Part shown: positions 7,648 to 64,000 of the stretch, piece after piece
Numbering within the stretch: position 1 is the first letter of the stretch
Layout of the letters: each line of letters begins with the position of its first letter
DNA from: Sphaerosporella brunnea
Taxonomy: Eukaryota; Ascomycota; Pezizomycetes; Pezizales; Pyronemataceae
Length of the DNA: 64,000 nt
Assembly: GCA_008704415.1 (NCBI GenBank)
Contig: VXIS01000070.1
Span: forward strand, 102,639-166,638
Direction of reading: 5' to 3'
Notes under the pieces: generated by a model
What the model was told of the DNA's origin: nothing
Database searches by the model: none
Seen by the model: only the letters and a program-made list of their open reading frames with translations
Program-made: the position numbers and the translations under genes

Positions 7648-7819
7648 GTGGAGAAAATTAGACAAAAAACTCCAACGACACAAAAAAAGCAAGACCAATG
7701 CTTGAGACCCGAAAAAAACCAAACAGCAAAAAAGCACAGAACTCGAAGGCATAATACGAAACAAAAACTAGCCAGAAACTAAACCATCTACAACTATATG
7801 GCCTAGATGCCCGACTACT

Positions 7820-37358: not shown

Positions 37359-38437
37359 GTTATCTACTTTCACACATCTTTCTAAGACTGAGATTTTTTC
37401 AACGACGAGCTGCTTTTTCCCTTGTCTTTTTTTTTTTTTTTTTTTTTTTTTTTCGACGGTTATTGTGCCCCGTAGATACCCCGTCTACTACGCGTGAACT
37501 ATCTATCATAAGTACAAGTACATACTTGCCTACATACCCGCACATCATTGCTCCTGGTATGCAATTCTACCAGCTTCAGCAGTCCGAATGCCGACCCGAA
37601 TGAAACGCAGGTCCTTCCCAACATACGCCAAATGCAATTGCCACCAACTTTCCCATCTATTCTGGGCCTGACCGTGCTGGCAATGCAAACTGGCAGTGAC
37701 AACAGCCCGCCGGGGGCTGCAGCCGAAACAGCCAATCCGGCTTCTCGTTCAGCCATCCCGGCTATCGTGTCGAGAACAAATACACGCGGGGCATGGTGGA
37801 TACGTTTGTTGTTTTTTTGACGGGGGGTATAGAGAGGGTTTCACAAAACCATGGGGACGGCAACATAATAGCCATTTTCTGTTTTTTTTTTTTTTTTTTT
37901 TTTTCGATGCAGGAGCGGATAACTATATCTTATTTTCTCCCTTTGTAGTTAGTCAGCTAGCCTGACGACGACTGGAATACGGAATGCGTGTGTATGTGTG
38001 TGTGCGCTTTGCAGTTGGTCAACGTTGGGGCCTGATTGATCCTAGCAAGCTCAAACCTTCTCGCAAGTTTGTAGTTATAAGACATATCAAACGGCTTATT
38101 GAAAATATGCTTATAATGTGTGGTAGCAATGGCCGGTTACTGTGCTTTCTGTTTTGTTGTGTCGGTGGCATCTGCAGCGGGGAGCCAGTGCCTTGTTGTG
38201 AGTCAAGCCTTCGACCGGCACGTCCTTAAACGGTCACGTTAAACCCCTTCTAAAAACTTTTGGGTGGGTTAGAGGTCAGTGGCGAGTGACATCCAGTGTT
38301 TATGAACAATCGGCAAAAAAACAAGACGCCTTCTTTTAAACACGCTTACACCACAAAATCTGAACTTCCGCCGCCGAATACCACCCAGACTTCATCCCAA
38401 CCCCCCCATCTCCCAACACATTCCACGTACCGCTGCT
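37359..38437. other. Interval containing the left limit of the palindrome visible here
   Basis: Holds poly-T runs at about 37429-37454 and 37882-37904 and no convincing gene. The mirror of position 37690 is 64000, so where the inverted repeat really ends cannot be seen. Confidence 0.6.
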
Positions 38438-39841
38438 ATGTCCCCCGACCAGGAACTGCGACGGTAAGTTAAATGAGCCCGCTCGTCCCACGCGCCGTGC
38501 TGATGTTGTAGCTTCCTGCTCGGCGAGCCCGACCCATCTCACATCGACGAACCGGGAGGTACACATCCGCTGGATGGCTTCGACACGACGGGTTGGACGG
38601 CGGCGCAGAAGCAAGCGGTTTTCGCCGAGCTGATGAGCAGGATGCCGCCTTTCGACCTCGAATACGTGGTGCTTCCGCGGTACTGCAAGTGCCGCTGGCT
38701 CTGGGCCGAGTTCACGAGCACGCTGGGCTTCACGCTGAACCGCAAGGTGGCGGGCTTCAGCTTCGACGAGGCGGTGCTGGTCCTCAACAACCTGGACGCC
38801 ATCATGGCGCTGCCGAAGCACCGGCGCATCCCCGCGCTGCACGCGTGCGTCGGCGCCAACGTCGAAGCGCTTCCCAGCAGCAGCAGCAGACGCAGACGCA
38901 CCGAAAACATCGTGACCGACAGGAAGCTGGTCGGCCGGAAGCCCGCGGTGCTGAGCCACCGGCTCTGGGCCGAGGTGCGCAACCTCTACTTCGCCTGCCT
39001 CCTCGACGCCTCCGCCATGACCGAGATCTGCATGCGCACCATGCAGCAGATCAAGGACACCGGCGTCATGGTGCCCATGGTGCAGGATACCATCCACCCG
39101 TACACGGTCCCGCAGACCGCGCACGAGCGGCGCTCCCCGATGCCGAGGTTCGGGAAGAGCGTCTACGAGCGCCTCGGCGAGACGGTGTGGTGCTTGGTGT
39201 ACTACCCGGGCATGGAGGTCGACATCGCCTGCAAGGAATGCTCCCATGTCCGATACCGCCTGCTGAGGGACTATGCCGGCGAGGGCGACATCGGAAAGCT
39301 GCGCAACGCGAGGGCCGGCAAGAAGGAGGAGGAGGAGGAGGAAACGTCGACGCCAAAAGAAACGGGCCCCTTCAGCGCTCCCTGCTACGATCCACGTCCC
39401 CAGCGTCCCATCCCTTGCAGAACCGTCGACATGGGAGAGTTCTACCGGACCGGCAACATCGAATTGGTCGTGAGGGGACCGCTCGAGCCTGAGCGGGCCC
39501 TGGGAGTAGCGGACCTGGAGGACGAAGTCCACCTTGACATGGGGCACCAGGAATATCTCGCCAGATGTCTCAAGAAGGAGGAGGAGGAGGAGGAGAAGTT
39601 GGCCGGCCCGAACAAGGAGGCGAGGACCACCACCACCACCACCAAGAAGAAAGCCCGAGACCGCGCGGCGATCGCCAGGCAGACCGCTGACGTCGTCAAA
39701 AAGCTCAGGAACAACTACGACATCCTCAACGAGGCTTGGACTGGATGGCGCGAGGGTTTCAATGCCAAGAACGACCAGGCGTTGGACAAGCCCGTGCCGG
39801 AGCTCTTTTGCAACTGTAGAGTCTGTACTTCGTGGGCCTAG
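38438..39841 (+). CDS. Uncharacterised Cys-containing protein (left copy)
   Basis: Predicted 451-aa protein from exons 38438-38463 and 38512-39841, with a 48-nt intron (GTAAGT...TTGTAG). The exon 1 phase fits a start MSPDQELRR. Notable segments are VLPRYCKCRWLWAEF, a CKECSH pair in the middle, glutamate runs (EEEEEE) and a C-terminal CNCRVC. The paired cysteines suggest metal binding. The codons are GC-rich, which keeps the antisense strand open over 547 codons; that antisense frame is not a gene. Function unknown. An identical copy is at 61868-63271. Confidence 0.7.
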
Positions 39842-40328
39842 TAGCCAGCTGCAATTGGCTGCAGCCGTTGACGGAGCGAGCGCTTTGCTGGTTCCGGTGC
39901 AAATAAAACAATTCCAGTTGATGTGCAGACCATAAATCTCTTTGCTCCACCGATTGCAGGTGGCCCACACCGCCACCATTCGCCGCTGCCTCGCTTGAAG
40001 CTCACTCCATAGGGATGGATTTCCGTGTATGTACGTACAGAAACATCGGGGGGGGGGGGGAGGGGCATCTTAATCGTTAACCGTTCAGAAAATTCATCAA
40101 GATTACAGCAAATATGGGCAATTTTCTTCGCCGTATCTCTTTTCTGCTAGTCCATACTACCTAATGCACATATTAATCCCAAAATCCCACGCAATAAGAA
40201 TGCATCCATCGCCATGGCCAAAATGAAACCAAAAAAACCGGCTCAAAGCAAGCGCGGGGAGGTCCCAGATACTGCCGCCCAATTAACGATGCCACACCCG
40301 TGAATGCTCACTCAAGGCGAGCGCAGAA
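39842..40328. other. Convergent 3' interval, left arm
   Basis: No gene. It contains a 13-G run at about 40048-40060 that is only 3 G in the right arm. Confidence 0.7.
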
Positions 40329-41836
40329 TTAAGCCCAAGCGCCAACCAGAGCCATGCCAAACGCACCAAAAAAGACCCAGCAGCAAGCGATGATACGTCG
40401 TCTCCCAGAAAGAGTGTGCCAGCTCTCATCGCTCAGGAAGTCCTCGGCCAGCAGCTCCACAAGTCCCGCGAACACCAACAGCCCCGACGAGATCGCGTTC
40501 ATGATCCCCACCACCAGGAGGCCTGTCTGGCTGTCTGGGGAATAGAGCGTATGCGTTGCAAGCCCGATGGCCTGGCCGATGGGAGTGGTAAGGCCGTACG
40601 CACAGGCCATCAACCATGGCTGCCAGGCGCCCTTCTTCCAGTCGAGTGCAGCGATGCGGGAGCCAAGGGCAAGGCCTTCAAAGGTCTGGTGGAACACGAT
40701 GGCGATGAGAAGGACAACGAAAGCACTGCCCACGGTCACGGAAACTGCCATGCCGATGAAAATGCTGTGGAAGAGGATCCCCAATTCGAGCAGGAAGCAT
40801 TGAAGAATCGCCTTCTTATGCTTTTGCTGTGGGGTGAGCTGGATCTTTGGGAATTGGACGATGCTGGCAGCGGCGTTGTTGTTGTTGTTGTTGGGCTGCG
40901 AAGAAGGAGGCAGCCCCTTCACCGGAGTAGATGTGCCCGACGTGTGAGGACTCCCGTCCGCAATGGTCTGAGCGATACTCCCCAAGTTGCCGCGGCCCTG
41001 CGAGATCCCACCGTTGAGCCTCTGCAGCGCCTGTCCAACGCTGTGAGTACGCGATCGGCGCCTGCCCAGCATCCCAAATCCCAGGCTCCCCATTCCTCCC
41101 TCGCCACCAATGTTGTCGACGTTACTGGTGCGATGCGGGCCCCGATCCTCCTGCGCCTCCCCCTCCGCCTCCGCCTCCCCAGCATCCTCCCCTCCTTCCT
41201 TTTCACTAAGCCGTCCATTCTCGAGCGAGGTGTCGTGAATCTCGTGGCCGGTGTAGTGTCCACTGCACAATCCCTTGGTAAAAACCATCTCCACGACAGC
41301 GACGAGGAAAACTGCAGCCATAGCGATGGCGCCGGGCATCGCTGGATATTCCTTTGTCCAGAATTCGGGCAGGCAGTCGTCGGAGAGCGAGATGAAGGCC
41401 GTGGGGAGCAGGTGCACGAACGCGGTGGCGATCAAGACGCCGGTGCCGAAGTGTCGGGCGAAGAAAAGGAAGGAAGGGGGGATGCGGAGGAATGGGTATT
41501 TTTTTGCAATGAGTGGGAAAGCGCACGCTGTACCCCCATCCCATGTCAGTTCAATCCGGAAGAGCTCTCTGCCTGCAAAGACAACCCTATCATACCCAGC
41601 GTGCTCTGTCCGAAGATTACGAATAAGCCCATTACGTGCAAGCCCAGATTGTATTCATCTTCACTCAGGCCACGGCCTCCGCAGACCGGAGAGCTCCGTG
41701 GAACCAGTGCTCGGTCGAAGCTGGGAGGGTTTTGGTTGAAGCCAGGGTTGCCTGAGTGTTCAGTCAGTGATATGAGAGTGGCACTTGACGAGAGGGGCGC
41801 ACCGGTAGGCTCAGGATCGCGGGTAGGGCAATTCAT
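40329..41836 (-). CDS. ZIP-family zinc/iron transporter (left copy)
   Basis: Predicted 462-aa protein from exons 41836-41803, 41751-41596 and 41527-40329. The N-terminal membrane segments run through GLHVMGLFVIFGQSTLACAFPLI and the ZIP hallmark RHFGTGVLIATAFVHLLPTAF. Next is a long cytosolic loop with a His-containing SGHYTGHEIHD start, acidic repeats, Ser/Thr and an Asn run. The C-terminal half has LELGILFHSIFIGMAV and VFHQTFEGLALGSRI, the conserved metal-site helices, then two more helices ending at the terminus. It should import Zn(II) across the plasma membrane, like yeast Zrt1/Zrt2. The first intron (51 nt) is in frame and without a stop. Intact here and in the right arm (59883-61390). 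Confidence 0.93.
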
Positions 41837-43695
41837 CTTGGCAGTGAGTTGATTAAATTAATGGGAAGGCGTAGAAGGCCGTGTTGAGACAGAGCTGTCT
41901 ATGTTAAGTATTCAACAGTGATTTCAAGATGAGAATAAAATTGATCCAGACAAGGAGGAGGGTCGTGACGAGCTGCGAAGATTGTGGATCAATAATTGGA
42001 GATGTATCCAAACGGTGAGAGGTCTGGGTTGAAGTTAGCAGCGGCCAACTCGGAACCTTGTTATGTATCTCCGAGGAAGCAAACGTTAACTAACGAAGAT
42101 CTCGGGAAAGAAGAAATCCACGATCTGGCCGAGAAAGGAGAACGAGATGAAGAAGCCCCTGCAGACGACGGGACCAATTGGGGCCAGCAGACATGCCTTA
42201 GCTCCGACAGTTACATAGCATCCCAAGACACAACAACACATCTAGAGGCAATCGCGATTCGCGGAGTTTAACCAACTTCTGTCCAGAGTTCTGTCGTGCG
42301 AGTTAGCTCCACGGCTCTCTATCCAAGCGATCTCGACGCACCGAATCCAACACGAGCTGTCCGAAGAGGCGTGAATCATGCAACTCCCGCGAGTGGCCGC
42401 TTCCAACCAATTCTGCAGAACCAAGTCTTCCAAGACTCCAATTGCAACACCTTGGGGGAAGCCAAGCCCGCCGTTTTTCCCCCCTGGTCCAGACCACTCC
42501 GCTGCGGTGGCCGCTCATGTTGTAGGCCTATCCTGTAAATAACGACGACTTCCCGTTTTGTCCCGAGCGAATGATCGTGATGATATCAGATCATGATGCA
42601 AATACTATCTACCTATCTTCTGAACCGCACATCTACCATCCTGCAAAAAAGATTGGTAGGTGGAATTGATGATCACCACTACTAGGCGGAGACAAGGAAA
42701 TGCGGCATTTATGTATGCATGGCCCTCGATAAAGCGATCCGTCATCTCCACGTCCGGGTGTCATTCCATGGCCAAAAAGGCACCTTGATCGAGCCCCCCC
42801 CCCCCCAAGCTCGATAACGCAAACAACTTCACACCCTACCGTTGCACCCAAGCAAGCCACTTTCCAGTCTCAGAATCCAACAGGTGTCACCAGGGGCAAG
42901 CACGTGAGCTACTCCACGCAAGCCCAGCGTTCTACGTATCCAGGGGGAAAAAATGCGCCGGCGGACCTTCTTGGCTGTGAAAGCGGGTTTCCAGCGCCGG
43001 CTCACGTTTCAGCCCTACGTCCCTCGAATGATAATCCGTGTCCCCTTGGGGCGTTTCACAATTGGAAGATCGCCCGTTTGAAACTTCTCGACACGAGAGC
43101 ATTGAAACAGCCAAGTGCACGGGCATCAGCGGCTTCAGTGAGACACGGCCACTTGTTCATGTAACGTTATGATATGTACCCAGGTACAGTACATACCTCC
43201 AGTTATGATGGATCAAGCAACATTGACACTGAGGGTGAGCGTTGGAGAAGGAAAAGGTGAAGAGGAGGAGGAGGAGAAGGTAAAGAAGGAAGCGTAGGAT
43301 ATATGTACTCTATTGCGTTATACTGCGTGCCTCGCCCTTCTTGGATATTTCGGGCAAACACCGACTACAGCTGTTTATTGCTTGCGACAGTGAATTTGAT
43401 TGGCTGCCTTAATTCCGGCCACACGTTTTCCACACAGCAAACGTCGAAGGACGAACAGGACGAAGCCACGGCTGCTCGGCATTGAAGATTGCAGCGCCGA
43501 TTTGGTGATTTCATCCATTGAGGACGTAAGTATCGATGGTGGTTGATTGGTAGCCGCGTAGCCCTAATGCCATACTAGTGACCGGGGCGCGGGAAGCCGC
43601 CGGAGATAGGGGTTGAGTGCAGTGGCTACAACAGAGCAGCAACAACCTCACTCTTTGTGTCTTCACACGCCACATCACCGATTCCACGCACAATA
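41837..43695. other. 1.86-kb divergent promoter interval, left arm
   Basis: Lies between the divergent ZIP and MFS genes. No supported gene. It contains a 13-C run at about 42794-42806 that is the same length in the right arm, unlike the other homopolymers, and a GAGGAGGAGG purine tract at about 43260-43280. Confidence 0.6.
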
Positions 43696-45523
43696 ATGGC
43701 AGCCGATCCAGAAGTGCGTCCCGTCGCCACGGAGCGCGATGCGCTTCTCGCCCCCAAGCACGACGACGATCCCGAGACGGCGCAGGATGAAACCCTGGAT
43801 GAGGAGGAGCTGGACGAGCCGAAGATCCCCGGTGTCAAGATCCAGTATATCCTCCCGGCTCTAGCACTTGGGGTAAAAGCAGCAGCAGCGCCACTATATA
43901 CAAGTTGGCCTATGTAGCTTACCCTGCGATGCAGATCTTTTTAGCCGCGATGGATAATACCATCGTCGTATCCTCGTACGGCGCCATCGGAAACGATCTG
44001 AAGGAACTCAACCGCACCTCGTGGATCGCTACCGCGTATCTGCTCACGACTACTAGCTTCCAGCCGCTGTACGGAAAGCTCTCGGACATCTTTGGCCGAA
44101 AGGCGAGTTTGTTGTTTGCGTATGCGGTGTTTGGAATCGGATGCCTGGCGTGCGGGATGAGCATGTCGCTGGAGCAGTTGGTGGCTGCCAGGGTAAGGTG
44201 TTTTTGCGAAATCAGAAGTTGGCAGGAGGAGAACTGACCGCGGGGGGGGCTTGTGTAGGCATTCGCGGGAATCGGCGGCGGCGGCATGACGACTGTCGTT
44301 TCCATCCTCGTGTCTGACATTGTAGGACTGAGGTCGCGAGGCACGTGGCAAGGTGTGTTGAACATAGTCTTTGCAAGCGGGGCAGCCGCGGGTGCGCCGT
44401 TGGGTACGAGATCTTCTACCGCCAATGCCAGCGGCCATAACTAACGGCCAGCAGGCGGCATAATCGCCGACACGATCGGCTGGCGCTGGGCGTTCATCCT
44501 GCATTCCGGCAACACTCCTCGCAATAGCAATAGTCAGCATCTTCCTCAGCTGCCGGCACCCGAGCTAGTCGGGAACCGACTTCAAGACGCGGCTATACCG
44601 CGTCGACTTCCTGGGCGCCGCAGTCCTCGTGCTAGCCGTGCTGAGCCTTCTCATCGGCCTCGACAAAGCGGGAACCTATCCATCACATCCCCAGTGGTAG
44701 ATAACCTCGCTGTCGATCGCGCTTGCCCTCTTCGCTACCTTCACGTACGTCGAATCGTTATCGCCGCCGAGCCCTTCGCGCCGCCGCACGTAGTCAAGCA
44801 ACGGCACGATCCTCGCCTCGGCCTGGCAAACTCTTCTCCTTCGCCTCGCACATACGGTGCCTTCTTTCGTGCCGCTCTACTACCAAGCGGTCGAGGCCGC
44901 TCTCGGCGCGGCAAGCGGGGATGCGGCTGCTCCCCGCCATCGCCGGCGGCGTCTCGGGCTCCCTCGCCGGCGGCCTCCTGATGCAAAAAACCGGAAAATA
45001 CTACTGGCTGACCGTCTCCTCGTACTGCGGCCTCCCAGTCCTCGGCTCGGCGGCCGTCCTCGTCCTCCACCTCTGCCGCCGCCGGCCACCACCACAACCA
45101 CAGGCATCAGCTTCGGCATCCTCTCCTCCGGCTTCGGAAACGGCATCGGCGTCACCACCACGCTCGTGGCGCTCATCGCCAGCGCGAGGGAGCAAAGACC
45201 AAGCTCGTGGCCACGGCCGTAAGCATACCTCATTCTCCGCGCGCTCAGGCACCGTCAGCGGCGTCAGCCTCCGGCCGCGATGCTGGTGCAGGCCGCTCAG
45301 GACCGGGCTCGAGCGTCGCCTCGGCAGCGGCGACGAGGCGCGGAAATCGTGAGGAGGGTCAGGGGGAGCATGGACTTTATCGCCACCCTCCCCGACGAGC
45401 TTAGAGCCGCGGTTCGAGAGTGCTACAGAGACGCCGTGCACGTCGCCTTCGCCTCTCGCTGCTCCTGGCCGTTTGCGCCGTCGTCAGCAGCGTGTTTATT
45501 CGGAGAAGCGGCTGGCCGCGTGA
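43696..45523 (+). pseudogene. MFS transporter, left copy, frame broken by many indels
   Basis: The first four exons (43696-43872, 43935-44192, 44259-44403, 44455 onward) match the intact right copy. From about 44,490 on, scattered single-base gains, losses and substitutions appear: for example CTGCATTCCGG here against CTGCAATTCCCGG in the right arm. No continuous frame remains to the stop equivalent at 45521. The protein family and features are described under the right copy (56201-58023). Confidence 0.85.
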
Positions 45524-45743
45524 GCATATCTAGTGGTTAGTATCGATGTCGCGCGTGTGTTTCGGCGTTTGTTTGTTTCTGCTTGCGTAAGATCACGAGA
45601 GACATGAATTCCTTAGATCGTGTTCTCCTCTGAAGGGGCCCGCAGACCGAGTCGTGATGGCAATGAAGCGTAGCCGTGTTTCGCGTGAGAGGTCATGATG
45701 CTAATCAACTGCCAAACAAAGGATATCTTTTTTCTATAGATCT

Positions 45744-47592
45744 CTATACGACGATATCCTTTCTCCTCATTTCTACCAGCAGTCCCTTGCCCTCCAAAAC
45801 TCCTAACCTGTCTAACCGTGTATTCGCCACGATGGAACTGAGCTCATCAGCCTTGACCCTCCCCTGTAACAGAAGAACTCACCATTCCCGGCGCCCAACG
45901 CACAGCATCAGTAGTAGTCTCTCTAAACACCTCCTCAAAGTGTGCGGGGTTTCCCGCGCCACTGCTAGCATAACGGTATCTTAACGCCTGCTTAACCGCG
46001 CGGATGAGTTCGAGTCGAAGCCGCGAGTTGGTTCCGTCCTTATCGATGCCAGTTGAGGAGGATCTCGCCGGCGCCCATCGCCTCAACCGCCTGCACCAGA
46101 CATCTGCATGCAAGTCGAGGTCGCGACCCTCGCGCCCGCCTTGATGGTACACTGGCTACCAGCCAGTACGCCTCCGCCGTTGGGACCGGGGAAAGGCGGT
46201 CTTGATGGGTGTTGCGGGGGGTGGCGGACGGGGCGGAGACGTACACGCGTCTCGGGTCCACAGAGACGACGACGGCTGGTTGCCGTAGCTTTCGAGATCT
46301 GCCTCGATCGCCGCGGTGCCGAGGAGTGGTTTTTCCGCGGGCGTAGAATTCCTCTGCGGCGGTGACGGCGTCGGAGCCGATCGAGACCTTGTCGGCGCGC
46401 TCTTGAAGTACATGGTTGCGACGTCGAGGGCGGAGGACAATGGAGCTTGTCCGTGTCGACGACGTCTCTGATCCGCCGCCGATGGTAAGGGGTACAAACC
46501 ACCGTTTCGCTGTGCCTGCGCAGGACCTCGAGCATGGGTAGGTCCCGCACCGGACAGTTGCGGAAGCTAGTGATGTCTCAGGAATGTCACCTCGTCGGCG
46601 CCGTCCTCTCGAAATACTTCCGTGCACATCTCTACCGGCTTGCCGAGATTGCGCCACGCCGTTCCTGGTCCGCCTTCTCTCGCACGTCATATTGGTCGCC
46701 TTTGGTCACTACTAGGTCGCCCGTTCGTCGTTCGTGCGCACGTCTAGGCAGGCGATGACGCGGCGGGTGAGGCCAGCCCACACTCGCGCGCTCCTTGACC
46801 TCCGTGGCGAGCCCCGACAGCGGGGTCAGCCGCGTCTGCGTCAAGAACGCCTTGAGCACGGCCAGGCCGGCGTAGCCCGATTTCTCAGGGTGGAACTGGG
46901 TGGCCATGATATTCCCCCTAGAGACGGCGCCCTACAACTCCTCGTCGCCGTATTTAGCGGTGGCCAGGTCCCAGCCCTCCAGGCCCTCCACGGGTCGCGC
47001 GTACGAGTGCACGTAGTAGTATTTGCTGTGCGGTCGGAGGCCGTAGAGGGAGCCGTCCGGGGACGCCCGCGTCGCTGCACTGTTCCACCCGATGTCGGCA
47101 CCGCTTTTTGTGCTTGCTGTCGAAGAGCTTGAGCTTTCCCTGGATCACGCCGAGGCCAGGGTAGGCTGGGTCTCCTCCGAGCCCTCAAAAAGCGCTTGCA
47201 TGCCGACGCAGATGCCCATAGAACGGCTTGCCCGAGGCGATGAAGCGCTTCAAGGGCTCGATGTAGCCAGCTTTGGAGAGCGTCGACATGCAGTGGCCGA
47301 AGTGACCGACACCGGGGAAGATGACGGACTGTTTGTTGCGTTCAACTCAGTTTGCTGGGTGGCAATGTGGAGAGCGGAGACGGTGGGATACCGACCTCGG
47401 CGGTCTCGAGGTCAGAAGGACTCTTGATCCATTCTACGGTGTAGCCGACTCGCTCGATCGCGTTGACGAGGGAGCGGATATTGCCGCTGTGGAGTTTCGA
47501 GAAAAAAATTGTGGTCAGTTCTCTGTGAGAATTGAGCAATTGGAGGAAAAAGCGGCTCACGAAACTGTGTCGAGGAGGTAAACGGTAGGCAT
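45744..47592 (-). pseudogene. HIS7: HIS7, left copy, frame broken by many indels
   Basis: Same gene as 54148-55979, but between about 47,220 and the 3' end the frame is lost repeatedly. An extra T falls inside the GKPFMG codons, a G is missing in the EED codons, and the distance from start to stop is 17 bp longer than in the right copy. The first two exons and their introns are clean. Damage is spread over exons and the last intron alike, which argues against ordinary splicing differences. Confidence 0.85.
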
Positions 47593-48280
47593 TTTGGGCG
47601 GGCAAACCGTGAGGCGAGAGCGGAAGTCGTTGGGAATGACTCTGGCGGCGTTGAGTGAGATGTTTGGCACCCCGCCCTGCCAAGCAAAAGTTTTTAAGCC
47701 GCATCATTGAGTCAACCACATGTGAATCATCGTCACAGCTTATCATCCAGTGTTTTTGTTTCTCTGGCCGAGTTTCGTTTGTCGCCGTTCGACTTCGTAC
47801 GGCGAGTGCGGGGTTGACTGAAGCCCTGAAGCCTAGACGTCATGCCGTGCGTGTAGGTTTAGACTTGCAGCTCGGCGCTGAAGACAAAGAGAGGGGTAGA
47901 TATCGATGTGCATCTCGTCCCACGATTCGCAAATACCCCGCAATGGATCATGAACAGTCGGTAGTGCGAGCATGATCATCTTCAAAGTGCCGAGTTTCGG
48001 AATTATGATGTGCAAGCATTTGAACACATGACCTCAAGCAGCATGGAATCAACAAAATCAAATGCGCCCTGAAACCCGCAACTGGCGAGAAACCCGCCGC
48101 GAGTGACAGATTATGATATCATTAAACAGCACCCACAAAAAATGGAATTGGAATCATGACGATCGCACAGAATGGGTAAACATCTGGGTATGGATGAACC
48201 GCCTTGAAGGGCTAGACCACGATCCCGTCCCTTGGCTTTTCGGTAGTTAGCAAAACGCACAGCTAAACATAGGATCTGAC
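47593..48280. other. HIS7-DCD1 interval, left arm
   Basis: No gene seen. HIS7 is transcribed away from here and DCD1 ends here. Same sequence as the right arm. Confidence 0.6.
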
Positions 48281-50590: not shown

Positions 50591-51145
50591 TCGATCTTGC
50601 ACGTCTTTCGTTAGTAGCATCAATGTTGTAGACTTTATAAGATTTTTCACTTGACCTTAGTCATTGTCTTCGCCCTCCCCCACCCCTTTCCCGTCATAGT
50701 TTATTATTGGCGGTGTGGATATATCTTATCAATGAAGACTACAGTCTCAGTTCTTTTATCCGTAAACACTCACATACTATCTTTTCTCTTAGAAGACAAT
50801 CTGAAAGTGGTTTTAGATACTTTGTTAATTCCTGTATACATTAGACAGGATACATAGTAAAGTACGTTGTATCTCTCTCTGCTCACTACTTTTGTACTGT
50901 TGTATGATTAGTGATATACGACGTATTTACATGGTATCCGCACTGTCGAATACCACCGTACTAAACCCCTGTTCGATAGTCACAGCGGCAAAATAGTATT
51001 TGATATTCTGGATACCAGACAGCTAGTTTCTTGATAGATATATCCACACCAGCCACATCACAACTTGCGGACCGCGCGCCATGCCAACGCCGTGACAATC
51101 CTTCAACGCTCCCAGTGATGAACGACTCCGACAGCGACGACGACG
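50591..51145. other. Unique spacer at the palindrome apex
   Basis: About 555 bp that does not pair with itself overall, ending at CGTCGTCGTCG on both sides. The left part is AT-rich; the right part is GC-richer. One short stretch still pairs: GGTGTGGATATATC at about 50713 and its reverse complement at about 51040-51053, with near matches alongside. No gene. Confidence 0.8.
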
Positions 51146-52249: not shown

Positions 52250-53459
52250 ATGCTCGTGGGTATTTGCGGAGGTACGTCGAACGGATCTCCGCGAATCCGG
52301 AGAAACAATCGTTCATCATAAAATCAGCAAGTAACTAACGGACGCCCTTTTCTCTCTTGCAGGTCTGTGCGCTGGAAAACGGACCGTTGCGAATTTCCTT
52401 GTCGAAATGCTCCGGTTTCAGGAACTAGCCTTTGAGAACGACGCCCGCAAACAGCCGCAGAACGCGGGCGTGCTCGCTTTCCCGAATGCGCAGGAGCTGA
52501 TGAACTATGTCACCCCGCGCTGGAGAGAGCACTTTGTGGTCTCCAACGTCCGTGACAAGAGCGTGCTCGACGAGCTGTCGTCCAGGCCATGCTTCATTTT
52601 GATCAGTGTGGATGCGCCGGTGACTACGCGCTGGGTGCGCCACGTGAAAAGGTAGAACTGTGTAATACCATTGTCGCACCCCACCCCCGCTGAAGATTGA
52701 AACCCTCAGGAATGAAGCCTGGAGTAAACCAGCGCAAACCCTGGAGATGTTTCTGGAAGCTTCGGACGCGCAGATGTATCATCCGGTCAAAGGGATTGCT
52801 CCCATCGTGGACCGAGCGTCCATCAAGTTGATCAACTGGGACAACTCGGTGGCGGCGCTTCATCGGAAGCTGACCAATCTCAACATCACCGACTCGGAGA
52901 GATTGCGGCCGGGATGGGACGCCTACTTCATGCAGCTTGCGTCGCTGGCAGCGAAGCGGAGCAACTGCATGAAGCGGCGGGTTGGATGTGTTCTCGTGCG
53001 CGAAAAGAGGGTCATCGCGACCGGATACAATGGAGCCCCGCGCGGCTTGACGAACTGCAACGACGGAGGCTGCGCCAGGTGCAATGACGGTTCTGCCGGT
53101 GGAACGGCCTTGGACACTTGCCTGTGCCTGCACGCCGAGGAGAACGCACTTCTAGAGGCGGGGCGAGAACGTGTTGGTGCGGGGGCCACGTTGTACTGCG
53201 ATACGTATGCACATGATGCTGAAGATGGGGAGGGGTCATCTGGCTGACACCCTTTTAGATGCCCTTGCCTGACGTGCAGTATCAAAATTGTCCAGGTCGG
53301 CATTTCTGAAGTGGTCTACTCTCGGGGATACAGCATGGATGCTCAGGTATGTCTCGCATCCAGATCTCATCTCAAGCTCGATCTGACTGGGTTCAGACTG
53401 CAGATGTTCTCAGAGAAGGCGGAGTGAGGCTCAGACAGTACCATCCGGTGAGCTTATAA
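52250..53459 (+). CDS. DCD1: Deoxycytidylate (dCMP) deaminase (right copy)
   Basis: Predicted 318-aa protein from exons 52250-52271, 52363-52651, 52710-53204, 53259-53346 and 53397-53459; introns are 50-91 nt. The N-terminus carries a P-loop-like GGLCAGKRT and a nucleotide-kinase-like fold, as in other fungal Dcd1 proteins. The zinc deaminase domain has the catalytic C-H-A-E (H245, E247) and the PCLTC zinc ligands (C272, C275), which exist only after the 53205-53258 intron is removed. The end reads SMDAQTADVLREGGVRLRQYHP. The enzyme converts dCMP to dUMP, feeding thymidylate synthesis, and is allosterically controlled by dCTP/dTTP in the family. Confidence 0.95.
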
Positions 53460-54147
53460 GTCAGATCCTATGTTTAGCTGTGCGTTTTGCTAACTACCGA
53501 AAAGCCAAGGGACGGGATCGTGGTCTAGCCCTTCAAGGCGGTTCATCCATACCCAGATGTTTACCCATTCTGTGCGATCGTCATGATTCCAATTCCATTT
53601 TTTGTGGGTGCTGTTTAATGATATCATAATCTGTCACTCGCGGCGGGTTTCTCGCCAGTTGCGGGTTTCAGGGCGCATTTGATTTTGTTGATTCCATGCT
53701 GCTTGAGGTCATGTGTTCAAATGCTTGCACATCATAATTCCGAAACTCGGCACTTTGAAGATGATCATGCTCGCACTACCGACTGTTCATGATCCATTGC
53801 GGGGTATTTGCGAATCGTGGGACGAGATGCACATCGATATCTACCCCTCTCTTTGTCTTCAGCGCCGAGCTGCAAGTCTAAACCTACACGCACGGCATGA
53901 CGTCTAGGCTTCAGGGCTTCAGTCAACCCCGCACTCGCCGTACGAAGTCGAACGGCGACAAACGAAACTCGGCCAGAGAAACAAAAACACTGGATGATAA
54001 GCTGTGACGATGATTCACATGTGGTTGACTCAATGATGCGGCTTAAAAACTTTTGCTTGGCAGGGCGGGGTGCCAAACATCTCACTCAACGCCGCCAGAG
54101 TCATTCCCAACGACTTCCGCTCTCGCCTCACGGTTTGCCCGCCCAAA
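53460..54147. other. DCD1-HIS7 interval, right arm
   Basis: Promoter side of HIS7 (both genes on the plus strand here). No gene seen. I did not find a convincing TGACTCA Gcn4/CPC1 site by eye. Confidence 0.55.
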
Positions 54148-55979
54148 ATGCCTACCGTTTACCTCCTCGACACAGTTTCGTGAGCCGCTTTTTCCTCCAA
54201 TTGCTCAATTCTCACAGAGAACTGACCACAATTTTTTTCTCGAAACTCCACAGCGGCAATATCCGCTCCCTCGTCAACGCGATCGAGCGAGTCGGCTACA
54301 CCGTAGAATGGATCAAGAGTCCTTCTGACCTCGAGACCGCCGAGGTCGGTATCCCACCGTCTCCGCTCTCCACATTGCCACCCAGCAAACTGAGTTGAAC
54401 GCAACAAACAGTCCGTCATCTTCCCCGGTGTCGGTCACTTCGGCCACTGCATGTCGACGCTCTCCAAAGCTGGCTACATCGAGCCCTTGAAGCGCTTCAT
54501 CGCCTCGGGCAAGCCGTTCATGGGCATCTGCGTCGGCATGCAAGCGCTTTTTGAGGGCTCGGAGGAGGACCCAGCCTACCCTGGCCTCGGCGTGATCCCG
54601 GGAAAGCTCAAGCTCTTCGACAGCAGCACAAAAGCGGTGCCGCACATCGGGTGGAACAGTGCAGCGACGCGGGCGTCCCCGGACGGCTCCCTCTACGGCC
54701 TCCGACCGCACAGCAAATACTACTACGTGCACTCGTACGCGCGACCCGTGGAGGGCCTGGAGGGCTGGGACCTGGCCACCGCTAAATACGGCGACGAGGA
54801 GTTTGTAGGCGCCGTCTCTAGGGGGAATATCATGGCCACCCAGTTCCACCCTGAGAAATCGGGCTACGCCGGCCTGGCCGTGCTCAAGGCGTTCTTGACG
54901 CAGACGCGGCTGACCCCGCTGTCGGGGCTCGCCACGGAGGTCAAGGAGCGCGCGAGTGTGGGCGGCCTCACCCGCCGCGTCATCGCCTGCCTAGACGTGC
55001 GCACGAACGACGACGGCGACCTAGTAGTGACCAAAGGCGACCAATATGACGTGCGAGAGAAGGCGGACGGAAACGGCGTGCGCAATCTCGGCAAGCCGGT
55101 AGAGATGGCACGGAAGTATTTCGAGGACGGCGCCGACGAGGTGACATTCCTGAACATCACTAGCTTCCGCAACTGTCCGGTGCGGGACCTACCCATGCTC
55201 GAGGTCCTGCGCAAGGCCAGCGAAACGGTGTTTGTACCCCTTACCATCGGCGGCGGAATCAGAGACGTCGTCGACACGGACGGCTCCATTGTCTCCGCCC
55301 TCGACGTCGCAACCATGTACTTCAAGAGCGGCGCCGACAAGGTCTCGATCGGCTCCGACGCCGTCACCGCCGCAGAGGAATTCTACGCCCGCGGAAAAAC
55401 CCTCCTCGGCACCGCGGCGATCGAGCAGATCTCGAAAGCCTACGGCAACCAGGCCGTCGTCGTCTCTGTGGACCCGAGACGCGTGTACGTCTCCGCCCCG
55501 TCCGCCACCCCCCGCAACACCATCAAGACCGCCTTCCCCGGTCCCAACGGCGAGGCGTACTGCTGGTACCAGTGTACCATCAAGGGCGGGCGCGAGGGTC
55601 GCGACCTCGACGTGCAGCAGCTGGTGCAGGCGGTTGAGGCGATGGGCGCCGGCGAGATCCTCCTCAACTGCATCGATAAGGACGGAACCAACTCCGGCTT
55701 CGACCTCGAACTCATCCGCGCGGTTAAGCAGGCGGTTAAGATACCCGTTATTGCTAGCAGTGGCGCGGGAAACCCCGCACACTTTGAGGAGGTGTTTAGA
55801 GAGACTACTACTGATGCTGCGTTGGGCGCCGGAATGGTGAGTTCTTTCTTGTTACAGGGGAGGGTCAAGGCTGATGAGCTCAGTTCCATCGTGGCGAATA
55901 CACGGTTAGACAGGTTAAGGAGTTTTTGGAGGGCAAGGGACTGCTGGTTAGAAATGAGGAGAAGGATATCGTCGTATAG
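54148..55979 (+). CDS. HIS7: Imidazole glycerol phosphate synthase (HisH-HisF fusion)
   Basis: Predicted 547-aa protein from exons 54148-54179, 54254-54344, 54412-55836 and 55884-55979. The N-terminal class I glutamine amidotransferase starts [17 protein letters not shown], has the nucleophile elbow GICVGMQ (C81) and the His/Glu of the triad in TQFHPEKSG (H187, E189). The C-terminal cyclase barrel starts at [12 protein letters not shown] and has [37 protein letters not shown] and [11 protein letters not shown]. The last exon gives [14 protein letters not shown]. The enzyme makes IGP and AICAR in step five of histidine synthesis and so links to purine synthesis. Length and order match yeast His7. 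It is intact only in this arm and ends 221 bp from the convergent MFS gene. Confidence 0.96.
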
Positions 55980-56200
55980 AGATCTATAGAAAAAAGATAT
56001 CCTTTGTTTGGCGGATTAGCATCATGACCTCTCACGCGAAACACGGCTACGCTTCATTGCCATCACGAACTCGGTCTTGCGGGCCCCTTCAGAGGAGGAA
56101 CACGATCTAAGGAATTCATGTCTCTCGTGATCTTACGCAAGCAGAAACAAACAAACGCCGAAACACACGCGCCGACATCGATACTAACCACTAGATATGC

Positions 56201-58023
56201 TCACGCGGCCAGCCGCTTCTCCCGAATAAACACGCTGCTGACGACGGCGCAAACGGCCAGGAGCAGCGAGAGGCCGAAGGCGACGTGCACGGCGTCTCTG
56301 TAGCACTCTCGAACCGCGGCTCTAAGCTCGTCGGGGAGGGTGGCGATAAAGTCCATGCTCCCCCTGACCCTCCTCACGATTTCCGCCGCCTCGTCGCCGC
56401 TGCCGAGGCGACGCTCGAGCCCGGTCCTGAGCCGGCCCTGCACCAGCATCGCGCCGAGGCTGACGCCGCTGACGGTGCCGAGCGCGCGGAAGAGGTAGCT
56501 TACGGCCGTGGCCACGGCTTGGTCTTTGCTCCCTGCGGCGGCGATGAGCGCCACGAGCGTGGTGGTGACGCCGATGCCGTTTCCGAAGCCGGAGGAGAGG
56601 ATGCCGAAGCTGATGCCTGTGGTTGTGGTGGTGGCGGCGGCGGCAGAGGTGGAGACGAGGACGGCCGCCGAGCCGAGGACTGGGAGGCAGTACGAGGAGA
56701 CGGTCAGCCAGTAGTATTTTCCGGTTTTTTGCATCAGGAGGCCGCCGGCGAGGGAGCCCGAGACGCCGCCGGCGATGGCGGGGAGCAGCCGCATCCCCGC
56801 TTGCCGCGCCGAGAGCGCCTCGACCGCTTGGTAGTAGAGCGGCACGAAGAAGAGCACCGTCATGTGCGAGGCGAAGGAGAAGAAGTTTGCCAGGCACGAG
56901 GCGAGGATCGTGCGTTGCTTGACTACGTGCGGCGGCGCGAAGGGCTCGGCGGCGATAAACGATTCGACGTACGTGAAGGTAGCGAAGAGGGCAAGCGCGA
57001 TCGACAGCGAGGTTATCACCACTGGGGATGTGAGGGATAGGTTCCCGGCTTTGTCGAGGCCGATGAGAAGGCTCAGCACGGCTAGCACGAGGACTGCGGC
57101 GCCCAGGAAGTCGACGCGGTATAGCCGCGTCTTGAAGTCGGTTCCCGACTGCTCGGGTGCTGGCAGCTGGAGGAAGATGCTGACTATTGCTATTGCGAGG
57201 AGTGTTGCCGGGAATTGCAGGATGAACGCCCAGCGCCAGCCGATCGTGTCGGCGATTATGCCGCCTGCTGGCCGTTAGTTATGGCCGCTGGCATTGGCGG
57301 TAGAAGATCTCGTACCCAACGGCGCACCCGCGGCTGCCCCGCTTGCAAAGACTATGTTCAACACACCTTGCCACGTGCCTCGCGACCTCAGTCCTACAAT
57401 GTCAGACACGAGGATGGAAACGACAGTCGTCATGCCGCCGCCGCCGATTCCCGCGAATGCCTACACAAGCCCCCCCCGCGGTCAGTTCTCCTCCTGCCAA
57501 CTTCTGATTTCGCAAAAACACCTTACCCTGGCAGCCACCAACTGCTCCAGCGACATGCTCATCCCGCACGCCAGGCATCCGATTCCAAACACCGCATACG
57601 CAAACAACAAACTCGCCTTTCGGCCAAAGATGTCCGAGAGCTTTCCGTACAGCGGCTGGAAGCTAGTAGTCGTGAGCAGATACGCGGTAGCGATCCACGA
57701 GGTGCGGTTGAGTTCCTTCAGATCGTTTCCGATGGCGCCGTACGAGGATACGACGATGGTATTATCCATCGCGGCTAAAAAGATCTGCATCGCAGGGTAA
57801 GCTACATAGGCCAACTTGTATATAGTGGCGCTGCTGCTGCTTTTACCCCAAGTGCTAGAGCCGGGAGGATATACTGGATCTTGACACCGGGGATCTTCGG
57901 CTCGTCCAGCTCCTCCTCATCCAGGGTTTCATCCTGCGCCGTCTCGGGATCGTCGTCGTGCTTGGGGGCGAGAAGCGCATCGCGCTCCGTGGCGACGGGA
58001 CGCACTTCTGGATCGGCTGCCAT
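56201..58023 (-). CDS. MFS transporter, Vba/DHA2-like (14-TM type), intact right copy
   Basis: Predicted 547-aa protein from exons 58023-57847, 57784-57527, 57460-57316 and 57264-56201. A cytosolic acidic N-terminus leads to FLAAMDNTIVVSSYGAIG in the first helix, the MFS loop signature GKLSDIFGRK, then the GGGGMTTVVSILVSD and WRWAFILQFPATLL segments. A long hydrophobic C-terminal half ends in a basic KRLAA. The pattern fits the DHA2/vacuolar basic amino acid transporter (Vba) group, in which these sequences usually occur. The substrate is unproven: basic amino acids or drugs are both possible. Convergent with HIS7. The left-arm copy is broken. Confidence 0.9.
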
Positions 58024-59882
58024 TATTGTGCGTGGAATCGGTGATGTGGCGTGTGAAGACACAAAGAGTGAGGTTGTTGCTGCTCTGTTGTAGCCACTGC
58101 ACTCAACCCCTATCTCCGGCGGCTTCCCGCGCCCCGGTCACTAGTATGGCATTAGGGCTACGCGGCTACCAATCAACCACCATCGATACTTACGTCCTCA
58201 ATGGATGAAATCACCAAATCGGCGCTGCAATCTTCAATGCCGAGCAGCCGTGGCTTCGTCCTGTTCGTCCTTCGACGTTTGCTGTGTGGAAAACGTGTGG
58301 CCGGAATTAAGGCAGCCAATCAAATTCACTGTCGCAAGCAATAAACAGCTGTAGTCGGTGTTTGCCCGAAATATCCAAGAAGGGCGAGGCACGCAGTATA
58401 ACGCAATAGAGTACATATATCCTACGCTTCCTTCTTTACCTTCTCCTCCTCCTCCTCTTCACCTTTTCCTTCTCCAACGCTCACCCTCAGTGTCAATGTT
58501 GCTTGATCCATCATAACTGGAGGTATGTACTGTACCTGGGTACATATCATAACGTTACATGAACAAGTGGCCGTGTCTCACTGAAGCCGCTGATGCCCGT
58601 GCACTTGGCTGTTTCAATGCTCTCGTGTCGAGAAGTTTCAAACGGGCGATCTTCCAATTGTGAAACGCCCCAAGGGGACACGGATTATCATTCGAGGGAC
58701 GTAGGGCTGAAACGTGAGCCGGCGCTGGAAACCCGCTTTCACAGCCAAGAAGGTCCGCCGGCGCATTTTTTCCCCCTGGATACGTAGAACGCTGGGCTTG
58801 CGTGGAGTAGCTCACGTGCTTGCCCCTGGTGACACCTGTTGGATTCTGAGACTGGAAAGTGGCTTGCTTGGGTGCAACGGTAGGGTGTGAAGTTGTTTGC
58901 GTTATCGAGCTTGGGGGGGGGGGGGCTCGATCAAGGTGCCTTTTTGGCCATGGAATGACACCCGGACGTGGAGATGACGGATCGCTTTATCGAGGGCCAT
59001 GCATACATAAATGCCGCATTTCCTTGTCTCCGCCTAGTAGTGGTGATCATCAATTCCACCTACCAATCTTTTTTGCAGGATGGTAGATGTGCGGTTCAGA
59101 AGATAGGTAGATAGTATTTGCATCATGATCTGATATCATCACGATCATTCGCTCGGGACAAAACGGGAAGTCGTCGTTATTTACAGGATAGGCCTACAAC
59201 ATGAGCGGCCACCGCAGCGGAGTGGTCTGGACCAGGGGGGAAAAACGGCGGGCTTGGCTTCCCCCAAGGTGTTGCAATTGGAGTCTTGGAAGACTTGGTT
59301 CTGCAGAATTGGTTGGAAGCGGCCACTCGCGGGAGTTGCATGATTCACGCCTCTTCGGACAGCTCGTGTTGGATTCGGTGCGTCGAGATCGCTTGGATAG
59401 AGAGCCGTGGAGCTAACTCGCACGACAGAACTCTGGACAGAAGTTGGTTAAACTCCGCGAATCGCGATTGCCTCTAGATGTGTTGTTGTGTCTTGGGATG
59501 CTATGTAACTGTCGGAGCTAAGGCATGTCTGCTGGCCCCAATTGGTCCCGTCGTCTGCAGGGGCTTCTTCATCTCGTTCTCCTTTCTCGGCCAGATCGTG
59601 GATTTCTTCTTTCCCGAGATCTTCGTTAGTTAACGTTTGCTTCCTCGGAGATACATAACAAGGTTCCGAGTTGGCCGCTGCTAACTTCAACCCAGACCTC
59701 TCACCGTTTGGATACATCTCCAATTATTGATCCACAATCTTCGCAGCTCGTCACGACCCTCCTCCTTGTCTGGATCAATTTTATTCTCATCTTGAAATCA
59801 CTGTTGAATACTTAACATAGACAGCTCTGTCTCAACACGGCCTTCTACGCCTTCCCATTAATTTAATCAACTCACTGCCAAG
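58024..59882. other. Divergent promoter interval, right arm
   Basis: Mirror of 41837-43695, between the MFS and ZIP genes. No gene seen. The 13-G run at about 58913-58925 equals the left arm. Confidence 0.6.
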
Positions 59883-61390
59883 ATGAATTGCCCTACCCGC
59901 GATCCTGAGCCTACCGGTGCGCCCCTCTCGTCAAGTGCCACTCTCATATCACTGACTGAACACTCAGGCAACCCTGGCTTCAACCAAAACCCTCCCAGCT
60001 TCGACCGAGCACTGGTTCCACGGAGCTCTCCGGTCTGCGGAGGCCGTGGCCTGAGTGAAGATGAATACAATCTGGGCTTGCACGTAATGGGCTTATTCGT
60101 AATCTTCGGACAGAGCACGCTGGGTATGATAGGGTTGTCTTTGCAGGCAGAGAGCTCTTCCGGATTGAACTGACATGGGATGGGGGTACAGCGTGCGCTT
60201 TCCCACTCATTGCAAAAAAATACCCATTCCTCCGCATCCCCCCTTCCTTCCTTTTCTTCGCCCGACACTTCGGCACCGGCGTCTTGATCGCCACCGCGTT
60301 CGTGCACCTGCTCCCCACGGCCTTCATCTCGCTCTCCGACGACTGCCTGCCCGAATTCTGGACAAAGGAATATCCAGCGATGCCCGGCGCCATCGCTATG
60401 GCTGCAGTTTTCCTCGTCGCTGTCGTGGAGATGGTTTTTACCAAGGGATTGTGCAGTGGACACTACACCGGCCACGAGATTCACGACACCTCGCTCGAGA
60501 ATGGACGGCTTAGTGAAAAGGAAGGAGGGGAGGATGCTGGGGAGGCGGAGGCGGAGGGGGAGGCGCAGGAGGATCGGGGCCCGCATCGCACCAGTAACGT
60601 CGACAACATTGGTGGCGAGGGAGGAATGGGGAGCCTGGGATTTGGGATGCTGGGCAGGCGCCGATCGCGTACTCACAGCGTTGGACAGGCGCTGCAGAGG
60701 CTCAACGGTGGGATCTCGCAGGGCCGCGGCAACTTGGGGAGTATCGCTCAGACCATTGCGGACGGGAGTCCTCACACGTCGGGCACATCTACTCCGGTGA
60801 AGGGGCTGCCTCCTTCTTCGCAGCCCAACAACAACAACAACAACGCCGCTGCCAGCATCGTCCAATTCCCAAAGATCCAGCTCACCCCACAGCAAAAGCA
60901 TAAGAAGGCGATTCTTCAATGCTTCCTGCTCGAATTGGGGATCCTCTTCCACAGCATTTTCATCGGCATGGCAGTTTCCGTGACCGTGGGCAGTGCTTTC
61001 GTTGTCCTTCTCATCGCCATCGTGTTCCACCAGACCTTTGAAGGCCTTGCCCTTGGCTCCCGCATCGCTGCACTCGACTGGAAGAAGGGCGCCTGGCAGC
61101 CATGGTTGATGGCCTGTGCGTACGGCCTTACCACTCCCATCGGCCAGGCCATCGGGCTTGCAACGCATACGCTCTATTCCCCAGACAGCCAGACAGGCCT
61201 CCTGGTGGTGGGGATCATGAACGCGATCTCGTCGGGGCTGTTGGTGTTCGCGGGACTTGTGGAGCTGCTGGCCGAGGACTTCCTGAGCGATGAGAGCTGG
61301 CACACTCTTTCTGGGAGACGACGTATCATCGCTTGCTGCTGGGTCTTTTTTGGTGCGTTTGGCATGGCTCTGGTTGGCGCTTGGGCTTAA
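59883..61390 (+). CDS. ZIP-family zinc/iron transporter (right copy)
   Basis: Exons 59883-59916, 59968-60123 and 60192-61390 encode the same 462-aa protein as 40329-41836. The donor/acceptor pairs are GTGCGC...CTCAG and GTATGA...TACAG, the latter with branch ACTGAC. Retaining the 51-nt first intron adds 17 codons without a stop. Confidence 0.93.
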
Positions 61391-61867
61391 TTCTGCGCTC
61401 GCCTTGAGTGAGCATTCACGGGTGTGGCATCGTTAATTGGGCGGCAGTATCTGGGACCTCCCCGCGCTTGCTTTGAGCCGGTTTTTTTGGTTTCATTTTG
61501 GCCATGGCGATGGATGCATTCTTATTGCGTGGGATTTTGGGATTAATATGTGCATTAGGTAGTATGGACTAGCAGAAAAGAGATACGGCGAAGAAAATTG
61601 CCCATATTTGCTGTAATCTTGATGAATTTTCTGAACGGTTAACGATTAAGATGCCCCTCCCGATGTTTCTGTACGTACATACACGGAAATCCATCCCTAT
61701 GGAGTGAGCTTCAAGCGAGGCAGCGGCGAATGGTGGCGGTGTGGGCCACCTGCAATCGGTGGAGCAAAGAGATTTATGGTCTGCACATCAACTGGAATTG
61801 TTTTATTTGCACCGGAACCAGCAAAGCGCTCGCTCCGTCAACGGCTGCAGCCAATTGCAGCTGGCTA
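61391..61867. other. Convergent 3' interval, right arm
   Basis: Mirror of 39842-40328 with the G tract reduced from 13 to 3. No gene. Confidence 0.7.
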
Positions 61868-63271
61868 CTAGGCCCACGAAGTACAGACTCTACAGTTGCA
61901 AAAGAGCTCCGGCACGGGCTTGTCCAACGCCTGGTCGTTCTTGGCATTGAAACCCTCGCGCCATCCAGTCCAAGCCTCGTTGAGGATGTCGTAGTTGTTC
62001 CTGAGCTTTTTGACGACGTCAGCGGTCTGCCTGGCGATCGCCGCGCGGTCTCGGGCTTTCTTCTTGGTGGTGGTGGTGGTGGTCCTCGCCTCCTTGTTCG
62101 GGCCGGCCAACTTCTCCTCCTCCTCCTCCTCCTTCTTGAGACATCTGGCGAGATATTCCTGGTGCCCCATGTCAAGGTGGACTTCGTCCTCCAGGTCCGC
62201 TACTCCCAGGGCCCGCTCAGGCTCGAGCGGTCCCCTCACGACCAATTCGATGTTGCCGGTCCGGTAGAACTCTCCCATGTCGACGGTTCTGCAAGGGATG
62301 GGACGCTGGGGACGTGGATCGTAGCAGGGAGCGCTGAAGGGGCCCGTTTCTTTTGGCGTCGACGTTTCCTCCTCCTCCTCCTCCTTCTTGCCGGCCCTCG
62401 CGTTGCGCAGCTTTCCGATGTCGCCCTCGCCGGCATAGTCCCTCAGCAGGCGGTATCGGACATGGGAGCATTCCTTGCAGGCGATGTCGACCTCCATGCC
62501 CGGGTAGTACACCAAGCACCACACCGTCTCGCCGAGGCGCTCGTAGACGCTCTTCCCGAACCTCGGCATCGGGGAGCGCCGCTCGTGCGCGGTCTGCGGG
62601 ACCGTGTACGGGTGGATGGTATCCTGCACCATGGGCACCATGACGCCGGTGTCCTTGATCTGCTGCATGGTGCGCATGCAGATCTCGGTCATGGCGGAGG
62701 CGTCGAGGAGGCAGGCGAAGTAGAGGTTGCGCACCTCGGCCCAGAGCCGGTGGCTCAGCACCGCGGGCTTCCGGCCGACCAGCTTCCTGTCGGTCACGAT
62801 GTTTTCGGTGCGTCTGCGTCTGCTGCTGCTGCTGGGAAGCGCTTCGACGTTGGCGCCGACGCACGCGTGCAGCGCGGGGATGCGCCGGTGCTTCGGCAGC
62901 GCCATGATGGCGTCCAGGTTGTTGAGGACCAGCACCGCCTCGTCGAAGCTGAAGCCCGCCACCTTGCGGTTCAGCGTGAAGCCCAGCGTGCTCGTGAACT
63001 CGGCCCAGAGCCAGCGGCACTTGCAGTACCGCGGAAGCACCACGTATTCGAGGTCGAAAGGCGGCATCCTGCTCATCAGCTCGGCGAAAACCGCTTGCTT
63101 CTGCGCCGCCGTCCAACCCGTCGTGTCGAAGCCATCCAGCGGATGTGTACCTCCCGGTTCGTCGATGTGAGATGGGTCGGGCTCGCCGAGCAGGAAGCTA
63201 CAACATCAGCACGGCGCGTGGGACGAGCGGGCTCATTTAACTTACCGTCGCAGTTCCTGGTCGGGGGACAT
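61868..63271 (-). CDS. Uncharacterised Cys-containing protein (right copy)
   Basis: Exons 63271-63246 and 63197-61868, the same 451-aa product as 38438-39841. All features and splice sites are conserved. Confidence 0.7.
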
Positions 63272-64000
63272 AGCAGCGGTACGTGGAATGTGTTGGGAGA
63301 TGGGGGGGTTGGGATGAAGTCTGGGTGGTATTCGGCGGCGGAAGTTCAGATTTTGTGGTGTAAGCGTGTTTAAAAGAAGGCGTCTTGTTTTTTTGCCGAT
63401 TGTTCATAAACACTGGATGTCACTCGCCACTGACCTCTAACCCACCCAAAAGTTTTTAGAAGGGGTTTAACGTGACCGTTTAAGGACGTGCCGGTCGAAG
63501 GCTTGACTCACAACAAGGCACTGGCTCCCCGCTGCAGATGCCACCGACACAACAAAACAGAAAGCACAGTAACCGGCCATTGCTACCACACATTATAAGC
63601 ATATTTTCAATAAGCCGTTTGATATGTCTTATAACTACAAACTTGCGAGAAGGTTTGAGCTTGCTAGGATCAATCAGGCCCCAACGTTGACCAACTGCAA
63701 AGCGCACACACACATACACACGCATTCCGTATTCCAGTCGTCGTCAGGCTAGCTGACTAACTACAAAGGGAGAAAATAAGATATAGTTATCCGCTCCTGC
63801 ATCGAAAACAGAAAATGGCTATTATGTTGCCGTCCCCATGGTTTTGTGAAACCCTCTCTATACCCCCCGTCAAAAAAACAACAAACGTATCCACCATGCC
63901 CCGCGTGTATTTGTTCTCGACACGATAGCCGGGATGGCTGAACGAGAAGCCGGATTGGCTGTTTCGGCTGCAGCCCCCGGCGGGCTGTTGTCACTGCCAG
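63272..64000. other. Right window edge inside the palindrome
   Basis: Mirror of 37690-38437. No gene; the 23-T tract of the left arm is only 4 bases here. If the arm continues, the mirrored membrane-glycoprotein gene would follow just outside the window. Confidence 0.6.

Follow-up and report, generated by a model that had tools for sequence, protein, structure and literature searches.

In PacBio sequencing a SMRTbell links the two strands of an insert through hairpin adapters; the strands are read one after the other, and software later cuts the read wherever it recognises an adapter. An adapter read so poorly that it escapes recognition leaves insert, adapter and reverse-complemented insert in a single uncut read. 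Here we describe a 64,000-nucleotide stretch of the draft genome of the fungus Sphaerosporella brunnea (the window; bases 102639-166638 of contig C609, which is 166,638 bp long) that carries a giant mirror-image repeat, almost certainly an artefact of some kind and very probably derived from a palindromic read in which an adapter was missed.

According to the available text of PMC6218980, which presents Pacasus, palindromic sequences can result when a SMRTbell adapter is missed or missing, and palindromes made up 0.5% of non-amplified control reads, false positives included. The repeat on C609 shares with such reads its spacer-less arms, an adapter-like axis, an arm length resembling that of an insert, indel-type differences between the arms and an origin in PacBio data; unlike them, it has survived polishing and stands in a deposited contig, and its adapter is only weakly recognisable. 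Palindromes caused by whole-genome amplification, treated in the same text, are likewise artificial PacBio-read palindromes that spoil assemblies, but they arise by strand switching during amplification, and none is stated for the present genome in the available text of its paper. The long-read fold-back artefacts in the available part of PMC12870357 are likewise symmetric about the middle, their second half mapping back onto the locus of the first in the opposite orientation; they were found mainly in Oxford Nanopore data and hardly at all in three PacBio samples there. Among real palindromes, P1-P8 of the Y chromosome (as covered in the available text of PMC6218980) have kilobase-long arms of very high identity. 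In that case, however, the arms show about twice the single-copy depth, whereas the present one lacks one flank.

Comparison of the window with itself by blastn gave one long inverted pair, 37690-50590 / 64000-51143, which spans 12,947 columns at 98.88% identity with 10 mismatches and 97 gap openings; all remaining self-matches span 149 columns or fewer. The inverted repeat is thus present in the sequence, far in excess of chance, and the giant arms of at least 12.9 kb reported in the initial annotation are borne out. Its parts are as follows.

37690..50590, plus strand: left arm, whose inner part is of poorer quality than its counterpart (blastn self-comparison and edits by region)
50591..51142, no strand: noisy centre, in which the palindrome axis scores best after 50890-50894
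50871..50915, minus strand: adapter-like centre, an end-to-end match at raw-read error level to the PacBio SMRTbell adapter in reverse-complement orientation
51143..64000, minus strand: right arm, the reverse complement of the left arm, reaching the final base (166638) of C609

The order is therefore unique flank, left arm, noisy centre with its adapter-like axis, right arm and contig end. Window base 64000 is the final base of the contig, so that the repeat is cut off there and no second flank is visible; each arm, measured from the axis to the contig end, is at least 13.1 kb long, and the outer end at 37690/64000 cannot be taken for a natural repeat boundary.

Between the arms the initial annotation had placed a 555-bp loop. 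When the 552-bp centre was aligned to its own reverse complement, the local score was 146.4 and the alignment covered positions 12-549 of 552, while none of 300 dinucleotide-preserving shuffles scored as well (mean 58.5, maximum 84.4). This nearly full-length self-alignment leaves no room for a spacer in the palindrome, and what was read as a unique loop is the noisy middle of the same palindrome. Possible axes were scanned by aligning one half to the other. Those after 50890-50894 reached the peak score, 81; their alignments contain 198-199 identities and 36-39 mismatches, and the left half carries 65-67 extra bases and the right 11-17. The axis after 50892 has 199 identities, 36 mismatches and 67 and 15 extra bases, respectively. 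In its many indels, and in the excess of bases on one side, the palindrome centre resembles raw PacBio reads, and its quality is that of a raw read. The description as a loop concealed the clearest sign of an artefact, namely spacer-less arms that meet at a centre of this quality. A real centre, crossed by many reads at the published depth, should have been corrected. A very young, spacer-less palindrome of at least 26 kb that is real and occurs in some nuclei only would be crossed by few reads and so remain unpolished, and we give this explanation a very slender chance.

The axis itself contains an adapter-like stretch. The letters of the SMRTbell adapter were confirmed in a passage of the Methods of PMC12745853. 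The match on the axis, whose start at 50871 comes from a 90-base segment around the axis (50850-50940), has a score of 20, tied as best of the 64-kb window with one pair of places at about 39.6 and 62.15 kb that mirror each other in the two arms. This score was reached by none of 5000 shuffled centre segments and by 2 of 5000 dinucleotide-shuffled adapters. As evidence for an adapter, this match is suggestive and falls short of proof.

A short dispersed repeat, with diverged copies on contigs C139 and C113 that are 70-74% identical by blastn, overlaps the centre and served as a ruler. The copies on C139 (L004:1483-1691) and C113 (L040) were aligned separately to each half, which gave two homologous segments.

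50916..51083, plus strand: right half of the centre, homologous to the repeat on C139 and C113 (shuffle-tested scores)
50709..50872, minus strand: left half of the centre, whose reverse complement is weakly homologous to the same copies (coordinates from the C139 match)

For the right half the scores were 68.5 (C139) and 44.5 (C113), which none of 1000 shuffles matched for either copy; the homology begins at 50916 with both copies, just outside the adapter-like stretch. The reverse complement of the left half scored 22 and 24, equalled by 27 and 32 of 1000 shuffles; this weakly supported homology starts at 50872 with both copies and runs leftwards. The gap between the two boundaries, the weak one at 50872 and that at 50916, is 43 bp, and the adapter is 45 nucleotides long. 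Just beyond the boundary C139 and C113 agree at 17 of 18 bases, and these 18 bases matched the sequence beside the C609 axis, on either strand, no better than shuffles did (251 to 1983 of 2000 as good). Their absence would fit a fragment that ended at this point and was followed by something else.

Other kinds of artefact could also produce a palindrome: an in-vitro snap-back or amplification chimera, a hairpin-ended fragment without an adapter, or a contig misjoin made during gap closing. Such an origin is unlikely, although the library is termed low-input and finisherSC was run, according to the available text of the genome paper, and whole-genome amplification yields palindromic reads (PMC6218980, available text). 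A (CGT)n tract lies near the centre in both arms (50579-50590 and 51140-51151), and the adapter match is inconclusive. The same paper text on the genome states no amplification, however, and a stretch of about adapter length that resembles the adapter sits on the axis. We considered the (CGT)n tract as the fold-back point and ruled it out: the self-complement alignment runs past it to the axis near 50892.

The differences between the arms have a spectrum of their own. A unit-cost alignment of arm against arm contains 10 substitutions and 135 indel bases, of which 89 are extra in the left arm and 46 in the right; with substitutions charged double, 6 substitutions and 139 indel bases remain. Divergence between real copies is expected to consist mostly of substitutions, and the indel-dominated spectrum seen here is like that of raw reads. 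Repeat-induced point mutation was considered, and merely 10 substitutions separate the arms. By left-arm position, 37690-44503 has no substitution but 30 indel bases, of which two homopolymer runs account for 29; 47226-50058 has no differences; and 50059-50590 has 1 substitution and 13 indel bases. The two runs differ greatly in length, T23 (37882-37904) against T4 (63805-63808) and G13 (40048-40060) against G3 (61659-61661), probably through a consensus fault. The near-perfect identity claimed earlier therefore holds for about 9.6 kb of the left arm but not for 50059-50590 (14 edits) or for the patch in the first line below, where, too, nearly all edits are indels. A 500-bp grid of polishing windows was considered as the cause of the error patches and dropped, since the patch ends, compared by hand, do not clearly fall on such a grid.

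44504..47225, plus strand: left-arm error patch with 101 edits (9 substitutions, 92 indel bases)
54222..55976, plus strand: HisHF (imidazole glycerol phosphate synthase) in the right arm, PF00977/PF00117, in three blocks, encoding P0001
45760..47518, minus strand: left-arm copy of HisHF, broken, with P0001 in five pieces and three frames at 43-77% identity
56204..57916, minus strand: MFS transporter in the right arm, open reading frames (ORFs) 56204-57274 and 57485-57916, PF07690
43803..45537, plus strand: left-arm copy of the MFS transporter, its frames broken from 44504 onward

P0001 is the hypothetical protein FN846DRAFT_681531 of S. brunnea, 100% identical to the right-arm HisHF ORF over 90% of the query. 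Its blocks in the right arm are 54222-54359 (73.9%), which probably includes a small intron, 54409-55836 (99.8%) and 55884-55976 (100%); because this protein comes from a contig as long as C609, it is not an independent witness to the soundness of the right-arm copy. The Tricharina praecox protein P0005 gives the same contrast, with 70, 84 and 88% identity in the right arm and 38-70%, in four pieces, in the left, and the solved HisHF structure 1jvn matches the right-arm ORF in one unbroken alignment (7-482). By these alignments HisHF is sound on the right, and its left-arm copy carries frameshifts. Broken left copies of HisHF and MFS beside near-identical stretches might suggest a real, old inverted duplication whose arms are kept alike by gene conversion while the left patch decays as a pseudogene region. 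Pseudogene decay is expected to be rich in substitutions, however, and the patch has 9 of these against 92 indel bases; as the noisy centre and the contig end would also be left unexplained, we regard an old duplication as extremely improbable.

The missed-adapter origin accommodates these results as follows. One SMRTbell molecule with an insert of about 13 kb would have been read along one strand, through the hairpin adapter and back along the other strand. With the adapter read too poorly for recognition, the read would have been left unsplit as a palindrome of about 26 kb, which the assembler would then have placed at the end of C609, so that the locus appears once forward and once reversed. 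We infer that a single read was the source and that its adapter was missed rather than absent. Palindromic reads are longer than the rest, and assemblers that seed on the longest reads would thus favour them. The available text of the genome paper describes a low-input PacBio protocol with 10-kb libraries, assembly with Falcon, finisherSC and Arrow, and a very high stated depth; PacBio DNA reads are the sole assembly data that it names, and it cites SRA accessions SRP214822 and SRP215074. The arm length is compatible with an insert from a 10-kb library. We also searched the whole genome (640 contigs, 50,565,648 bases; the best candidates were scored). Four stretches of the repeat (37500-39500, 50300-51300, 54300-57300 and 62000-64000) have full-length matches on C609 only, and their shorter matches, at 65-86%, belong to dispersed repeats. 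Searching the plasmid collection gave no match. What counts in favour of a missed adapter is, then, the spacer-less palindrome with its noisy centre and adapter-like axis, the start of homology at 50916, the indel-type differences, the HisHF copy broken in the left arm only, the contig end, the matches confined to C609 and the PacBio data. The initial annotation kept open both a real palindrome and a fold-back or misjoin, with a preference for the artefact. This preference is strongly supported by the present tests, which also indicate the likely kind of artefact, an unsplit PacBio read with a missed adapter.

We also considered, and rejected, an origin of the right arm from a second locus: among the best candidates scored, full matches to the outer arm stretches, to part of the right-arm middle and to the centre lie on C609 alone. 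The segment 37516-37876, where the left arm begins on its outer side, has several matches of 65-86% on C401, C117, C639, C1, C445, C257 and C56 and represents a dispersed repeat.

A number of observations weigh against a missed adapter. The adapter match is driven by the stems: with the stems kept, 562 of 5000 adapters with a shuffled loop, and 965 of 5000 with a dinucleotide-shuffled loop, score as well as the adapter itself. Stricter scoring ranks the axis second (16.3), behind the mirrored pair, here at 39.5 and 62.1 kb (16.6), and a search for the exact adapter letters found no exact piece. In self-complementarity the 45-nucleotide centre does not surpass its shuffles (1032 of 2000 equal it or do better), a test that leaves the adapter stems unseen. 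At the centre, the left-half score to C139 (22) does not exceed that of a wrong-orientation control (23.5), and a longer, lenient alignment to C113 extends, if weakly, across the centre and scores 46, compared with 44.5 for the one that stops at 50916; given the two outside copies, the boundary may reflect natural truncation of the repeat. Within the arms, hardly any differences occur over about 9.6 kb of the left arm (37690-44503 and 47226-50058), a greater length than expected if the whole left arm were one poorly corrected read, and the two homopolymers are shorter in the right arm, so that the right copy may not always be the better one. Finally, none of 15 control windows of 10 kb at other contig ends, of which 5 lie at contig starts, including that of C609, and 10 at the ends of other contigs, held a palindrome with arms above 150 bp; the longest inverted pair had 139 columns, and these windows are blind to axes more than about 9 kb from the contig end, such as that of the present palindrome. 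No systematic assembly fault is thus demonstrated.

This null result, the presence of the DNA in a deposited contig and the almost base-for-base match of about 9.6 kb per arm would be in keeping with a real, recent palindromic duplication of the chromosome that doubled ZIP, MFS, HisHF, DCD1 and one or two further ORFs. We consider it very improbable all the same: the centre is of raw quality despite the very high depth stated in the available text of the genome paper, nearly all arm differences are indels, HisHF is broken in one arm only, and the contig stops inside an arm, so that the second flank is missing.

The doubled genes are ordinary. ORFs of the right arm match the Pfam families ZIP, MFS_1, His_biosynth, GATase and dCMP deaminase, and the genes not given above are these.

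60065..61387, plus strand: ZIP zinc transporter in the right arm, PF02535 (E 7.3e-50)
40332..41654, minus strand: left-arm copy of the ZIP zinc transporter, a 441-aa ORF of equal length with the same start, identified from its mirror ORF
52335..53244, plus strand: dCMP deaminase (DCD1) in the right arm, with PF00383 in ORF 52666-53244 and ORF 52335-52652 assigned by position
48496..49405, minus strand: mirror copies of both DCD1 ORFs in the left arm, from the ORF list

Large ORFs lacking a Pfam match are mirrored too (38339-40069 / 61643-63370 and 38504-39838 / 61871-63205). Five genes had been described as recurring in mirror order; this stands for ZIP, MFS, HisHF and dCMP deaminase, recognised by Pfam in the right arm, and for the mirrored ORFs without a match, but the left-arm frames of HisHF and MFS are broken. 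A Pfam scan of ten left-arm ORFs at an E cut-off of 0.001 matched 0 of 10. Part of this blank arises because the left-arm ZIP and deaminase ORFs were outside the chosen ten, and the mirror images of left-arm ORFs 38339-40069, 38504-39838 and 40287-41849 have no Pfam match in the right arm either. DCD1 adjoins HisHF (52335-55976), and match lists suggest that the two also lie on one contig in Wilcoxina mikolae, Choiromyces venosus and Drechslerella stenobrocha; this adjacency is perhaps a conserved neighbourhood.

Elsewhere in the window, the self-comparison shows a separate inverted repeat at 23096-23208 / 23338-23450, with 113-bp arms that are 95% identical and lie about 130 bp apart, and short tandem duplications at 7818-8024, 2247-2360 and 3550-3647.

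The locus is a case for quality control, and it was exposed from the sequence alone once the supposed loop had been compared with its own reverse complement. The terminal 13 kb or so of C609 is best treated as a duplicate, and the HisHF and MFS frameshifts in the left arm look false. Counts of genes, lists of paralogues and surveys of palindromes based on this draft of S. brunnea would be misled, with about five genes falsely doubled.

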